50,317 nucleotides of DNA from Clostridia bacterium (GTDB lineage: Bacteria; Bacillota; Clostridia; UBA1212): NCBI GenBank assembly GCA_017444825.1, contig JAFSVU010000037.1, forward strand, positions 1 through 50,317. Reading direction: 5' to 3'. Below the pieces are notes generated by a model, which was given only the letters and a program-made list of their open reading frames with translations, had not been told where the DNA came from and made no database searches. Of the stretch, positions 17,479-44,338 are shown in pieces. A program made the position numbers and the translations under genes. The number at the start of each line of letters is the position of its first letter. Within the stretch, counting starts at the first letter, position 1.

Positions 17479-17568
17479 GGAAAGATGGTCGAGTTGGTTT
17501 AAGGCACCGGTCTTGAAAACCGGCGATGGTTTTGCCATCCGTGGGTTCGAATCCCACTCTTTCCGCCA
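17479..17568 (+). tRNA. tRNA-Ser (anticodon TGA)
   Basis: The cloverleaf is complete. The acceptor stem GGAAAGA pairs with TCTTTCC, and the anticodon stem CCGGT/ACCGG surrounds loop CTTGAAA with anticodon TGA at 17514-17516. A long variable arm (CGATGG...CCATCC) is characteristic of serine tRNA, and the T arm is GTGGGTTCGAATCCCAC. The 3' CCA is encoded (17566-17568). It reads UCA and other UCN codons. Confidence 0.95.
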
Positions 17569-17579
17569 CCCGGTGATAT

Positions 17580-17656
17580 GCGCCCATAGCTCAATTGGAT
17601 AGAGCGTCTGGCTACGGACCAGAAGGTTGTGGATTCGAGCTCTGCTGGGCGCGCCA
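17580..17656 (+). tRNA. tRNA-Arg (anticodon ACG)
   Basis: The acceptor stem GCGCCCA/TGGGCGC, D arm AGCTCAATTGGATAGAGC and anticodon loop CTACGGA with ACG are clear. A34 is normally changed to inosine by TadA deaminase to read CGU, CGC and CGA. The T stem GTGGA/TCTGC contains two G-T wobble pairs, which is unusual for such a conserved stem. CCA is encoded at 17654-17656. It is co-transcribed with tRNA-Ser, 11 bases upstream. Confidence 0.95.
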
Positions 17657-38948: not shown

Positions 38949-38978
38949 TTGACAAAGCATATATTCATTTGCTACAAT
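38949..38978 (+). promoter_or_regulatory. Promoter of the mraZ division cluster
   Basis: A consensus TTGACA (38949-38954) and TACAAT (38973-38978) have an 18-base spacer. The start would be near 38985, giving an unusually long leader of about 380 nt before mraZ. Confidence 0.8.
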
Positions 38979-38989
38979 CCCTGTGTGCC

Positions 38990-39016
38990 CCATTTTAGAC
39001 CATTTTGGCCCATTTG
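38990..39016 (-). promoter_or_regulatory. Three 10-bp-spaced MraZ-type boxes
   Basis: CCATTTT (38990-38996), CCATTTT (39000-39006) and CCATTTG (39010-39016) repeat with an exact 10-base period. On the reverse strand they read AAATGG boxes, close to the TGGG/AAAGTGG repeats known to bind the ring-shaped MraZ protein. They lie at the transcription start of mraZ, so MraZ probably represses its own operon. Confidence 0.65.
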
Positions 39017-39037
39017 AAATGCGGAAAAGCACGCTTT

Positions 39038-39329
39038 ACTAAAGATGAATCCGTTTTTAAGCCGGGAAAAGACACGAAAGATTATTTTCAGGCCCTACGG
39101 GAGCCCGAAAGGGCGCCCGGGCCGGGGACAAAAGCTGCAACCCTGAAATTCAGGGACGATCTACAAAAGATAAACTCTCACAAAGAGAGATATACAAAAG
39201 ACAAAATCTCAGGAAGAGAGCTACAAAAGATAAAGCCCTAAGGGCGAAATACAAAAGAAATATAAACTACTGTTTTTCCGGCGGACTAAAGTTCCCGAGC
39301 CCCCAAAGGCCCCCGAACACCGCCGGAAA
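39038..39329 (+). other. Structured mraZ leader: hairpins alternating with ACNAAAG elements
   Basis: The element ACNAAAG recurs at 39038, 39074, 39128, 39163, 39194, 39223, 39251 and 39285, with a last weaker copy (GCTAAAG) at 39334. In the core, spacing is 28-35 bases. Between them are short stems: CCCTGA/TCAGGG (39141-39155), CTCTC/GAGAG (39175-39189), TCTC/GAGA (39207-39219) and GCCC/GGGC (39235-39245). A 10-bp stem TTTCCGGCGG/CCGCCGGAAA (39275-39284 and 39320-39329) stands before mraZ. Stems differ in sequence but keep pairing, which suggests selection on RNA structure. Confidence 0.55.
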
Positions 39330-39362
39330 CGGGGCTAAAGAGGACTTTGAAGGGCCTGCGCG

Positions 39363-39821
39363 ATGATACTCAGCGGAATTTATGAAAATACAATAGATAC
39401 CAAGAACCGCGTCGTGGTGCCCCAGGAGCTCAGGTCGCAGGTGGTCAATGAAGCCGGAGAGGTCTGGCTCACCTACAGCCCGGATTCCTGTATAAGGATC
39501 TATTCCGTTGAAGCTTATGAGAAGCTTCTCATGAGCATCCATCAGGCTCAGGTAGAGAAACAGGACACGAGGGTCCTTCAGCATATATTCATCAAAGCAG
39601 CCCGCAAGGCGGTCCTCGATTCAGGCGGACGTGTGTTCCTGCCCCAGGAGATGCGCAGCTGGGCGAAGATACCCGATACGGCGGAGGGAAAGATCGAGAC
39701 GGCCGTGGTGGGAAACGACGATCACCTTGAGATTTGGCTGAAGTCCGAGTTCGACGCGACTTTCGCGATGTTCACGCCGGAAATGGGGTTTGCGGCACTG
39801 CAGTCCATTGGTTTCTCCTGA
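39363..39821 (+). CDS. mraZ: Transcriptional regulator MraZ
   Basis: The 152-residue, AbrB-fold DNA-binding protein controls the division and cell-wall cluster. It has two repeats of the MraZ domain: GIYENTIDTKNRVVVPQELR (about 4-23) and KAVLDSGGRVFLPQEMRSWA (about 80-99), the DxxGRxxxP motifs of which make the DNA contacts. It ends close to the rsmH start. The ribosome site is weak (GAAGGG) and follows the long structured leader, so translation may be controlled there as well as transcription. Confidence 0.95.
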   Translation: MILSGIYENTIDTKNRVVVPQELRSQVVNEAGEVWLTYSPDSCIRIYSVEAYEKLLMSIHQAQVEKQDTRVLQHIFIKAARKAVLDSGGRVFLPQEMRSWAKIPDTAEGKIETAVVGNDDHLEIWLKSEFDATFAMFTPEMGFAALQSIGFS

Positions 39822-39849: not shown

Positions 39850-40806
39850 ATGGTGGAATTCTCTCATATCCCCGTACTCCTTGATGAGTGCATAAATAAT
39901 CTGGAGATCAAAACAAACGGTGTCTACGTCGACGGCACAGTGGGCGGAGGCGGACACTCAGGCGCGATCTTGAAAAAGCTCGGTGAAGGCGGACTGCTTA
40001 TCGGCATCGACAGGGATGCGGAAGCGATCGAAGCTGCGGGAATCGAGCTTAATTCTGTTTTAAAGGGCACCGGGTCAGGTGCAAGGTTTGAGCTCGTCCA
40101 CGATAATTACGTAAATATGGTGAGCATCTGCAAAGAACGCGGAATCGACGCTGTGGATGGCATTCTTCTTGACCTTGGCGTGTCCTCACACCAGTTTGAC
40201 AGTGCGGAAAGAGGCTTCTCGTACAGATTCGACGCGCCCCTCGACATGAGAATGGACCGTGAGGACAGATTAACCGCGGCGGACGTGGTGAACAGGTATT
40301 CCGAGAGGGAGCTTGCCGACATAATTTTCAGGTACGGCGAAGAGCGGTGGGCAAAGCGCATTGCTCAGTTTATAGTTGAAAGAAGAAAAAAATCGCCAAT
40401 TGAAACGACGCTGGAGCTGGTGGACGTGATAAAGGCTGCGATCCCGAAGGGGGCCAGAATGGACGGCGGCCATCCCGCGAAGAGGACATTCCAGGCCATC
40501 AGGATCGAAGTGAACGGCGAGCTTGACGTGCTGCCTAGGGTGATACTCGGCGCTGTGGAGATGCTGAAGCCCGGCGGCATAATGGAGATCATAACCTTCC
40601 ACAGCCTTGAGGAAGGCATTGTAAAAAAACTTTTTAAGAAGGCGGAAAACCCCTGCGAATGTCCACCTGAATTTCCGGTGTGCGTTTGCGGGAAGAAGCC
40701 CCTCGGTAAAATGACCACCAAACACGGGATAGTTGCGACGCCTGAGGAGCTTGAAAGAAATCCCAGGGCCGCCAGCGCGAAGCTCAGGGTGTTCAAAAGA
40801 GCCTGA
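39850..40806 (+). CDS. rsmH: 16S rRNA m4C1402 methyltransferase RsmH
   Basis: The 318-residue SAM-dependent enzyme methylates N4 of C1402 in 16S rRNA. It opens FSHIPVLLDECINNL, then shows the SAM loop VDGTVGGGGHSGAIL (about 27-41), LLDLGVSSHQFDSAERGFSY and GGHPAKRTFQAIRIEVN, all diagnostic. ATG at 39850 is preferred because conserved sequence begins there. A longer frame opens back inside mraZ but is not family-like. Length is normal (about 310-320). Confidence 0.95.
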   Translation: MVEFSHIPVLLDECINNLEIKTNGVYVDGTVGGGGHSGAILKKLGEGGLLIGIDRDAEAIEAAGIELNSVLKGTGSGARFELVHDNYVNMVSICKERGIDAVDGILLDLGVSSHQFDSAERGFSYRFDAPLDMRMDREDRLTAADVVNRYSERELADIIFRYGEERWAKRIAQFIVERRKKSPIETTLELVDVIKAAIPKGARMDGGHPAKRTFQAIRIEVNGELDVLPRVILGAVEMLKPGGIMEIITFHSLEEGIVKKLFKKAENPCECPPEFPVCVCGKKPLGKMTTKHGIVATPEELERNPRAASAKLRVFKRA

Positions 40807-40819
40807 ACGGGAAGATCAA

Positions 40820-41728
40820 ATGGCATCTGAATTTTACGAACCAATGGAATATTCGGAAGGAACCGGATCCGGCCAGATGTTCAGCCCGGGGAGCATCTCG
40901 TATGAGGGCATTGGCGACGTGCCTGTGGATATGATATCTACTGCACCCGGCAGAGTGAGTAGCCCCGGAAGGTACCTGGGGACCATATCCTTTGACGGTG
41001 TGGGCGAGGTGCCCATTGAGATAATCGAGGTCGAGGTTCCCGCAGAGCAGTACGAGATCGACTTCGGAGAGGCCGGGACGGCAGACGATGCGTTTGACGA
41101 GCCTGAAACGGAGCCTTTTTACGATACGTTTTACGAGCCGTTGCCGGAGGACGTTCCCGAGATAATCATTGAAGAGGAGCCTGAGACTCCCGCAAAAGCG
41201 GAAGAGGCGGTTGAAACGGAAGAGCCGCCCGCGGAAAACATGGATATCATTCCGGAGATCGCAAGGCATGTTTCGCGGGTGGACGAGCCTTCTCTTGTGA
41301 CGGTTGAGGACACCGCGACCTTCAGGCTTCTTAAAAACGTGGGCCACTTTAAAGCCGGCGCTATTTTCACGGTGCTTGTCATCATATGCAGCATTCTTCT
41401 GGGACTTGTGGCGGTGGCGAGGTACGCGTCCATATTCGACATCACAAGGCACACGAGGATCCTGGAAAATGAAAACGCCAAGGCCCTCAGCAAGCTTTCC
41501 TCGGAAAAAAACAATGCCGGGATACGGGAGGAAGAGAGCGTCGAGAGCATTGCCGCAAGGCTTGGAATGGTGAGACCTGCGGCGTCTTCCGTCATCGAAG
41601 TGGAGCTTGCGGGCGGAGAGGTGACAAGGGTGTTCCTTTCTTCAGAGGAAGCGGCGGTGAAAAGTGAGGACAGCGGCTTTTACCAAAGCCTCATGCGTTT
41701 TCTCGGGCGCATCGATTACGGCGACTGA
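40820..41728 (+). CDS. FtsL-like division protein with long acidic N-terminus
   Basis: The 302-residue protein lies where ftsL normally does, between rsmH and the division transpeptidase gene. About 175 acidic, probably disordered residues come first. They include two similar units, GSISYEGIGDVPVDMI and GTISFDGVGEVPIEII. One membrane segment follows (about 177-200, FTVLVIICSILLGLVAVA), then a short coiled coil (ITRHTRILENENAKALSKL) and a small outer domain (IAARLGMVRPAASSVIEVEL). That bitopic layout fits FtsL, which recruits PBP2b and FtsB/DivIC. FtsL is usually only about 100-120 residues, so the cytoplasmic extension is unusual. GGGAAG precedes the ATG. Confidence 0.75.
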   Translation: MASEFYEPMEYSEGTGSGQMFSPGSISYEGIGDVPVDMISTAPGRVSSPGRYLGTISFDGVGEVPIEIIEVEVPAEQYEIDFGEAGTADDAFDEPETEPFYDTFYEPLPEDVPEIIIEEEPETPAKAEEAVETEEPPAENMDIIPEIARHVSRVDEPSLVTVEDTATFRLLKNVGHFKAGAIFTVLVIICSILLGLVAVARYASIFDITRHTRILENENAKALSKLSSEKNNAGIREEESVESIAARLGMVRPAASSVIEVELAGGEVTRVFLSSEEAAVKSEDSGFYQSLMRFLGRIDYGD

Positions 41729-41731
41729 GCT

Positions 41732-44338
41732 ATGGGAAACAATAACTCAAACAATCCTTTTGAAAGACCGGTTCCGGAGGGCCGGGGGCCTGAGATGACC
41801 CCCAAAGAGCCGTCCGGTTCTTTTCCTGTACACGAATTTGAGCCTTTCTTCGGGGAGGACGACGTATACGGTACTGACGGAGACAACGATGCATACGACG
41901 TTCCGGAGGATGAGGACGAAGATAGGTATGAGCCTTCGAACGAAGACGACGAAGATATTTACAGCCTGACGGCTTACGAAGATAATACGGACAGTAGAGC
42001 CGCAGTCCCGGAAAAGCCTGAAAAAAAGAAGAACCCGATAGCTCTGTTCTTCAGATTCCTCGGCCGTCTCATGCTGGACCTTTTCGTAAAGCCCGGCCCC
42101 GCGGCAGAGGGCACCACGAAGGCCTCCCGCAGGGGTATAAAGGCCGTGGCGGTGGTGTCATTGGTCATTCTCTCACTGATCGCGCTCTACTACGGATACC
42201 TGATGATCCTCAAGGGGGAGCAGTACAAGAAAGAGGCGTACGACGCCCAGAACAAGGTGTTCGAGACAGCCGCGAGACGGGGAAATATATATGACGCCAA
42301 CGGAAATCCATTGGCGATAACGCTGGACACGTACACCGTAAGTGTTTCCAGAAAGGACGTTTCCGAGTACGGGGAGGATAAATACGAGGGCACCGCGGAC
42401 GAATACAGGCGGCTGGTCGCAAACGGGATCGGCGAGAGGACGGACGTGGATCCGGAGTGGATCTACGAGGAACTGAAAAAAGAGGTCGGAAACTACAAGG
42501 ACGTGGCGGTCGGCATTTCATCCGAGAAGGGCGAGAACGTCAAAAAATGGGTGTCCGAGGAGAAGATAAAAGGGGTCACGGTCACTGCGACCTGCTCAAG
42601 GTATTATCCCAACGGGTCACTGGCGGCTCACGTCATTGGTTTTACGGGCACGGACAACTACGGTCTCGTGTGCGGCATGGAGGTCATGTTCAACGATGAG
42701 CTGGCCGGAACCAACGGAAAGATACTGGCCACAGTGGAGAAAAACGGCAATGCCATCACCGGCGAGCCCAGGGAAGTCATCCAGGAGCTCAAAAACGGCG
42801 TCAACGTGAATATGACGATCGATAAAAACATCCAGCGGATCGCGGAGGACGTACTTCTGGAGGCCGTGAGGGACTTCGGCGTGTCTGAAGGCGGCGGGAT
42901 ACTCATCATGAACCCGAAAAACGGGGACATATTGACGATGGCCTCCTACCCCACCTTCGATCTCAACGACCCCATGACGGTGCTTCAGGACATCCGCAAG
43001 CAGTCGTTTTTCGAGGGCGAGGAGAGCAAATTTATCAGCGAATTCGTCTGGAAAAACAGGATGATAGCAAGCTCCTACGAGCCGGGCTCCACGTTTAAGG
43101 CCATAACCGCGTCAATAGCGTTGGAGGAGGGCATCGTGACCCCCGAGACCACGGTGAGCGACCTGCCCCTTGAGATAGACAAGTGGACGATCCACTGCTC
43201 CACGGCGAACAACGAAAACGGCCACGGTGAGGAAGAGACCTTCAGAATGGCCATAGCGAACTCCTGCAACCCGGTAATGGCAAGGGTGGCGCTGACGGCG
43301 GGCGTCGACAAGTTCTACAAATACGTCCGGGAATTCGGCTTCTATAACAAAACCAATGTGCTCCTCTCCGGCGAAGAGGTGGGCGTAATGCATAAAGACC
43401 CTACCGAGGTGGACCTTGCGGTCACGGCTTTCGGCCAGAGATTTACCATCACCCCCATACAGCTGGCCGCGGCCTACTGTGCCATCGCCAATGGGGGCAC
43501 TCTCTACGAGCCCCGCATCGTCACGTCCCTGACCGATGAAGAGGGCCGCACCGTGAAAGAATACCCGCCGAAGCAGGTGAGAAACGTCATCTCGAAGAAC
43601 ACCTCCGCCACGGTACTGGAGCTCCTTGAGGGCGTTGTGTCGAAGGGCACAGGTGTGAGAGCATTCGTATCCGGCTACAAGGTGGCGGGCAAGACAGGCA
43701 CCGCAGAGACCGTGGACACGGAGAGGACCGGAAGATACGTGGTATCATTCTCCGCCATCGCCCCCTCTGACAGGCCCGAGATAGTGGTATTGGTCATGCT
43801 GGACCACCCGGATTCGACCTACGGCGACGTTTCAGGCTCCAGAATGGGCGGTTGGATGGCCGGAACGGTCATTAAGAGAGTGCTTGAGTACAAGCAGGTG
43901 AAAAAGATATACACCGAAGAGGACCTGGCGATGATACGCAACGTTTATTACGCGGACGACCTCACGGGCATGACCTGCATCGAGGCGATGAACTGGTTCA
44001 AGACAAGCTCCAGGGCCTACAACGTGGTAGTCGTTGGCGATCCCGAGACCCATCCTCTGGTGACCCGCATGTACCCGGAGACCGGCGTTTACACCGCAAG
44101 GGAATGCACCCAGGTCATCTATTTTACCGACGATCCCGACGCAAAAGCGCCAATGGTAAAAGTACCGGACCTCACAGGCCTTACTTTGGGGGAGGCCCAC
44201 GGAAAGCTGACCTCGCTGGAACTCAATATGGACTGCCGCAAGGGAGATGTGATAATATCTCAGGACGTCCCTCCGGGCACGCTTGTGGAGAAGGGCACTG
44301 TGATAATCCTTGAGGCGGAGACCGCGCCGGAAGGCTGA
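41732..44338 (+). CDS. Division-type penicillin-binding protein (PBP2b/SpoVD/FtsI class) with PASTA domain
   Basis: The 868-residue class B transpeptidase crosslinks septal peptidoglycan. An acidic cytoplasmic tail of about 130 residues (NDAYDVPEDEDEDRYEPSNE) comes before a membrane helix (about 133-155). The PBP dimerisation domain follows (AARRGNIYDANGNPLAITL), then the transpeptidase with PGSTFK (active Ser near 452), SCN (near 511) and AGKTGTAET (near 652). A PASTA domain lies at about 806-866. It is longer than most because of the N-terminal tail. It starts 3 bases after the FtsL-like gene and has no own ribosome site, so translation is coupled. Confidence 0.93.
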   Translation: MGNNNSNNPFERPVPEGRGPEMTPKEPSGSFPVHEFEPFFGEDDVYGTDGDNDAYDVPEDEDEDRYEPSNEDDEDIYSLTAYEDNTDSRAAVPEKPEKKKNPIALFFRFLGRLMLDLFVKPGPAAEGTTKASRRGIKAVAVVSLVILSLIALYYGYLMILKGEQYKKEAYDAQNKVFETAARRGNIYDANGNPLAITLDTYTVSVSRKDVSEYGEDKYEGTADEYRRLVANGIGERTDVDPEWIYEELKKEVGNYKDVAVGISSEKGENVKKWVSEEKIKGVTVTATCSRYYPNGSLAAHVIGFTGTDNYGLVCGMEVMFNDELAGTNGKILATVEKNGNAITGEPREVIQELKNGVNVNMTIDKNIQRIAEDVLLEAVRDFGVSEGGGILIMNPKNGDILTMASYPTFDLNDPMTVLQDIRKQSFFEGEESKFISEFVWKNRMIASSYEPGSTFKAITASIALEEGIVTPETTVSDLPLEIDKWTIHCSTANNENGHGEEETFRMAIANSCNPVMARVALTAGVDKFYKYVREFGFYNKTNVLLSGEEVGVMHKDPTEVDLAVTAFGQRFTITPIQLAAAYCAIANGGTLYEPRIVTSLTDEEGRTVKEYPPKQVRNVISKNTSATVLELLEGVVSKGTGVRAFVSGYKVAGKTGTAETVDTERTGRYVVSFSAIAPSDRPEIVVLVMLDHPDSTYGDVSGSRMGGWMAGTVIKRVLEYKQVKKIYTEEDLAMIRNVYYADDLTGMTCIEAMNWFKTSSRAYNVVVVGDPETHPLVTRMYPETGVYTARECTQVIYFTDDPDAKAPMVKVPDLTGLTLGEAHGKLTSLELNMDCRKGDVIISQDVPPGTLVEKGTVIILEAETAPEG

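Follow-up and report, generated by a model that had tools for sequence, protein, structure and literature searches.

Comparison with described systems

The closest described counterparts of the array reported here, which lies upstream of mraZ within a window of 50,317 nucleotides (the whole stretch of DNA analysed), are RNAs in which a short motif recurs many times. The CsrB and RsmZ sponge RNAs carry numerous short protein-binding motifs held single-stranded between hairpins, an arrangement that the array resembles, and some relatives of the array likewise form promoter-array-terminator-like units. By way of contrast, the sponge RNAs display GGA and bind CsrA or RsmA, whereas the motif of the array is UACNAAAGA, is usually located inside the dcw mRNA, and has the core AA(A/G)GA, with G as the alternative letter in 11% of 111 copies; moreover, neither the window's genome nor most genomes of its order encode CsrA. 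In the TRAP-bound trp leader a single protein occupies many copies of a short leader motif, as is proposed for the array, but TRAP sites are (G/U)AG triplets 2–3 nt apart and the array comprises a 9-nt element repeated at intervals of about 14–45 nt. The array consequently belongs with neither CsrB/RsmZ nor TRAP, although both work in a similar manner.

UpsM, a small RNA derived from the 5′UTR of the dcw operon of Rhodobacter sphaeroides, shares with the array an extended dcw 5′ leader (268 nt for UpsM), which contains a non-coding RNA proposed to act in trans (PMC5089854). It differs in its Hfq-dependent cleavage, its leader terminator and its restriction to the Rhodobacteraceae, and the abstract mentions no repeat array (PMC5089854). 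A scan for terminators and attenuators, including an intrinsic terminator of the UpsM type, found no sense-strand site in the window's leader; such a hairpin follows some arrays in the mraZ-rsmH gap. The mraW RNA motif (RF01746) of the Actinomycetales has its gene neighbourhood in common with the array, but belongs to another phylum and constitutes a separate Rfam family (PMC2864571). MraZ DNA boxes are, like the array, direct repeats located 5′ of mraZ; the array motif nevertheless lacks the TGGG/GTGG-type boxes, about 10 bp apart, of an MraZ operator, and separate putative boxes are present in the window. The array follows a match to 6S RNA (RF00013) at three loci (L080, L113 and L154), but lies outside the 6S model and is found mostly in dcw.

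When the whole window was searched against Rfam only tRNAs reached the gathering threshold (two adjacent tRNA genes lie at 17479–17565 and 17580–17653), and a permissive search of the leader returned a single lncRNA match that fell short of its threshold (11.3 bits, with 55 required). The leader is thus without a meaningful Rfam family match. No riboswitch or attenuator of this shape was known to the initial annotation. Literature searches did not find a description of the element, which is no proof that none exists.

The array in the mraZ leader

Exact copies of ACNAAAG numbered eight in the interval 39038–39340 (starts 39038, 39074, 39128, 39163, 39194, 39223, 39251 and 39285), compared with 0.36 expected from a Markov-1 model of the interval, and eight or more copies were obtained in none of 5000 Markov-1 simulations. 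Near-matches occur besides, and the nine ACNAAAG-like elements initially annotated were a fair count of the two together. Four copies extend to TACAAAAGA (0.005 expected), starting at 39162, 39193, 39222 and 39250 and hence separated by the 28–31 nt originally noted, namely 31, 29 and 28 nt; since none of these intervals is a multiple of 3, a coding origin was rejected, as had been argued at the outset, and the ORF list of the window contained no plus-strand ORF of at least 80 aa over the array. Across the whole window TACNAAAGA gave six matches against 1.0 expected, five of the six being situated in the array on the plus strand.

The interval initially annotated leaves out two features immediately upstream (Table 1), a near-consensus promoter and, directly 3′ of it and apart from the array, a set of direct repeats that, by their type and spacing, are probably MraZ operator boxes. 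Several relatives have repeats of the GTGG type in a comparable location. The promoter places the array within a predicted mraZ 5′UTR of ~375 nt, and supports the prediction that the array is transcribed from it. In GC-richer relatives a promoter matching 10–12 of 12 consensus positions was located ~60–130 nt 5′ of the first copy, scores that shuffled sequences rarely or never reached; the leader promoter scores of AT-rich relatives were no better than those of shuffles. No array was present in the rsmH-ftsL gap of the window.

Table 1. Coordinates of the features of the mraZ leader and adjoining dcw genes in the window
Feature	Position	Strand	Basis
Sigma-70-type promoter, TTGACA-18-TACAAT, 11/12 consensus	38949..38978	+	promoter scan
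Putative MraZ DNA boxes, three TGGG/TGGT-like repeats ~10 bp apart	38988..39017	-	sequence
Element 1, TACTAAAGA	39037..39045	+	motif count
Element 2, ACGAAAGA	39074..39081	+	motif count
Element 3, degenerate, ACAAAAGC	39128..39135	+	motif count
Spacer hairpin CCCTGA/TCAGGG	39141..39155	+	sequence, fold
Element 4, TACAAAAGA	39162..39170	+	motif count
Spacer hairpin CTCTC/GAGAG	39175..39189	+	fold; spacer p 0.01 vs shuffles
Element 5, TACAAAAGA	39193..39201	+	motif count
Spacer hairpin TCTC/GAGA	39207..39219	+	fold; p 0.05 vs shuffles
Element 6, TACAAAAGA	39222..39230	+	motif count
Spacer hairpin GCCC/GGGC	39235..39245	+	fold; p 0.09 vs shuffles
Element 7, TACAAAAGA	39250..39258	+	motif count
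Terminal 10-bp stem before mraZ, TTTCCGGCGG/CCGCCGGAAA	39275..39329 (arms 39275-39284/39320-39329)	+	sequence
Degenerate element inside terminal-stem loop, ACTAAAGT	39285..39292	+	motif count
mraZ	39363..39821	+	ORF list, homology search
rsmH (mraW)	39850..40806	+	ORF list
ftsL-like gene	40811..41728	+	assigned from position; read in frame from 40811, start putative
Penicillin-binding protein gene of dcw cluster	41732..44338	+	position and sequence

Consensus and conservation of the element

The consensus of the element is UAC-N-AA(A/G)-GA followed by A-rich sequence, and arrays in many Clostridia contain from 3 to 20 copies of UACNAAAGA, at intervals that do not keep helical phase. The 111 copies taken from leaders of the window's order comprised T (0.92), AC, a free position (A 0.66, G 0.14, T 0.13, C 0.07), AA, A (0.89) or G (0.11), GA and an A-rich stretch; as these copies were collected with the pattern AC.AA[AG]GA, only the flanking letters, the N and the choice between A and G are informative. 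Looser copies, such as ACATAAGA and ACAAATGA, occur too.

Of the 31 genomes of the order, 30 yielded an mraZ match, and sense copies were detected in every one of these 30. The mraZ leader holds the copies in 25 of them, with 3–7 strict copies each; the leader of G006 contained one strict and three relaxed copies within 480 nt. In the remaining five the leader was empty and copies were located around the rsmH-ftsL gap instead, being numerous in G010, G011 and G013 and more weakly represented, by about three each, in G009 and G030. Both locations were occupied in G001, and the position of the array differed between G012 and G013, two members of one family. Antisense strict matches totalled one in all of the order's leaders together.

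A three-copy pattern was matched in 77 of the 391 genomes of the class, and 24 of the 30 class loci fetched were at dcw, mostly in the rsmH-ftsL gap. A scan of the genome collection returned at least 118 loci; among the matches listed, 58 were at the head of dcw, all 58 in sense orientation and 55 of them in the mraZ-rsmH gap. Among ~213 genomes not belonging to the class, a comparable though slightly more stringent pattern was matched by 2. Three main positions were thereby recognised, namely upstream of mraZ, the mraZ-rsmH gap and the rsmH-ftsL gap, all of them upstream of ftsL. In the mraZ-rsmH gap a stem CAGYTGGTA...TACCARCTG with a T-run was observed after the array at L104, L133, L137, L149, L173 and other loci; a strict scan found it in 14 of the 55 mraZ-rsmH arrays among the matches listed, and it may either function as an attenuator or form the 3′ terminus of a small RNA.

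Arrays outside dcw

At three Lachnospiraceae loci (L080, L113 and L154) the array lies directly 3′ of an Rfam-scored 6S RNA, and is itself followed by a terminator, which the scan scored at L080 and L113 and which was recognised by eye at L154. Reading by eye also suggested a promoter-array-terminator-like unit at L128 and a promoter with the array at its start at L181, the scan scoring a terminator at neither. No array was found in the dcw cluster of those Lachnospiraceae that carry one after 6S RNA or as its own unit. Genes encoding a SpoIID domain are located downstream of the array at L080, L108, L113, L125 and L189. At L050 (G391) an array plus a T-run hairpin was observed upstream of a spoIVA-like gene, its translation being judged by eye, and at L087 three copies precede a type III glutamine synthetase gene (Pfam GSIII_N).

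The three-copy scan found one array place in 15 of the 16 genomes reached through loci, and more in G417. Ten genomes with a non-dcw array and an MraZ match contained at most two relaxed sense copies in their MraZ-centred loci, which may span the rsmH-ftsL gap only partly; the three-copy scan does span it. As the scans required three strict copies, degenerate second arrays could escape them.

Folding of the spacers

The four spacer stems and the 10-bp terminal stem were all present as initially described. The fold of the leader (38986–39370) was more stable than those of 100 dinucleotide shuffles (z −4.75). Differing stems occupy a place comparable to that of the GCCC/GGGC hairpin at L002, L004 and L005, and a stem similar to the terminal one is present at L002–L004; as no T-run follows it, the terminal stem is not an intrinsic terminator.

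The alternation of hairpins, at first regarded as the defining shape, is significant within the window's order, where spacers averaged −3.9 kcal/mol compared with −1.9 for shuffles (p = 2.8e-6). In other orders it is not significant: spacer folding in their rsmH-ftsL arrays did not clearly exceed that of shuffles (p = 0.09). Hairpins were therefore rejected as the core feature, a role that falls to the constant element. Conservation of the element and covariation of the stems had both been proposed as checks on related mraZ leaders: the former was confirmed and the latter was slight, since of 30 predicted pairs compared across seven leaders 3 had both partners changed, and the covariation term was −0.14. 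The suggestion that the hairpins hold the elements open was not supported either, openness with the real spacers being no greater than with shuffled spacers (p = 0.45).

Candidate binding partners

The window's genome (G000) gave no match to CsrA, which is also absent from 26 of 29 genomes of the order, and lacks Hfq, found in 0 of 29; both were consequently rejected as binders. A KhpA/KhpB KH domain was present in all 44 genomes tested, whether array-positive or array-negative, so that co-occurrence does not discriminate. KhpA/KhpB, which one report links to division in Streptococcus pneumoniae (PMC6403258), are the leading guess as partner of the element.

Single copies of TACNAAAGA were not enriched in the 2.1 Mb of the window's own genome (69 versus 75 ± 36 for permuted motifs), nor within 80 nt 5′ of starts (6 versus 5.2 ± 4.6). 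No motif-sharing regulon is therefore visible, and a genome-wide single-site regulon was rejected. The same genome contained no clustered complement of the element.

Interpretation of the array

Because the element is strongly conserved, lies on the sense strand and occupies a leader behind a good promoter, a repeatedly used RNA site with putative binding activity is its best reading. The absence of an Rfam match, and the occurrence of the array at the end of 6S RNA or as a separate small RNA, suggest in turn a multi-site docking array for an RNA-binding protein, probably a titrating sink made together with the dcw mRNA, a view that we prefer tentatively and consider somewhat likelier to fail than to hold. 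The dcw mRNA would carry, in its untranslated head, a multi-copy, mostly single-stranded RNA element on which many copies of a single RNA-binding protein with sequence specificity, other than CsrA and Hfq, would dock. The array would be made whenever dcw is transcribed, or in some Lachnospiraceae together with 6S RNA or as a small RNA in its own right, and by soaking up the protein would tie the level of free protein to growth and division. The existence of the array, its sense orientation, its conservation and the variety of its locations are shown; that a protein binds, which protein it is, and that titration is preferable to cis control are inferred. The restriction to one array per genome, its shifting position and its presence in unrelated transcripts favour the titrating role.

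A pure titrator does not require the strong preference for dcw, on account of which cis control stays a close rival. The protein-bound element would then govern the dcw mRNA itself, through its stability, through elongation or through the mraZ-rsmH:ftsL-pbp ratio, in some cases with the help of an attenuator hairpin. This is possible, if rather doubtful. The array is upstream of ftsL in each main position, the T-run stem often follows mraZ-rsmH arrays, and several non-dcw arrays precede envelope or sporulation genes (five with a SpoIID domain, and the spoIVA-like gene of L050). The downstream gene nevertheless varies among mraZ, rsmH, ftsL, spoIID, spoIVA-like, glutamine synthetase and ileS, and a terminator-like site after the array was confined to L050 in the rsmH-ftsL set and to L007 among leaders with a 3′-side array. 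Doubt is also cast on this reading, which takes up the control of the division cluster initially proposed, by the movement of the array among three gaps, and by those Lachnospiraceae arrays that follow 6S RNA and end at a terminator, or form their own unit, with none found in dcw.

The initial annotation had envisaged either an RNA-binding protein or a trans RNA binding many times over; the repeated RNA site was upheld and the trans RNA is disfavoured. Short repeated elements that predicted folds leave mostly unpaired could conceivably base-pair with an RNA carrying UCUUUNGUA, but a pairing register would hardly leave one position free, and the failure to find a clustered complement in the same genome counts against one kind of trans-RNA partner, making this docking improbable. 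More improbable again is a protein-binding array acting as chromosomal DNA near dcw: the spacing of 21–25 bp in many arrays is near two helical turns, but spacings of 14–19, 25, 28–31 and 37–45 also occur, so that a helical-phase array does not fit, while the uniform sense orientation at the dcw loci among the matches listed, the spacer hairpins of the window's order, and the arrays placed after 6S RNA and before terminators all argue otherwise. Least probable of all is a functionless by-product of A-rich low-complexity or coding repeats, since, although some class-wide and genome-scan matches are repeats in other contexts and all intervals are multiples of 3 in 20 of the 118 loci among the matches listed, the 9-nt core is near-fixed while the spacers are free, whether the genome is rich in G+C or in A+T, and dcw positions match across families.

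The docking array may, in broader terms, be a portable RNA module of Clostridia with its own candidate RNA-binding partner, placed once per genome in a growth-following transcript (most often dcw, in other cases 6S RNA or a separate small RNA) and linking transcription of division genes to a regulator, a possibility to which we attach distinctly limited confidence. If true, the module would constitute a post-transcriptional link in bacteria without CsrA and Hfq, such as that of the window. Few bacterial gene orders are as well conserved as mraZ-rsmH-ftsL, and an array kept in the dcw gaps of many Clostridia, absent from Rfam and capable of lying at the end of 6S RNA instead, would mark an unrecognised layer of control. 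As would-be bait for an RNA-binding protein where CsrA and Hfq are absent, the array would permit a test of whether growth and division are tied post-transcriptionally.
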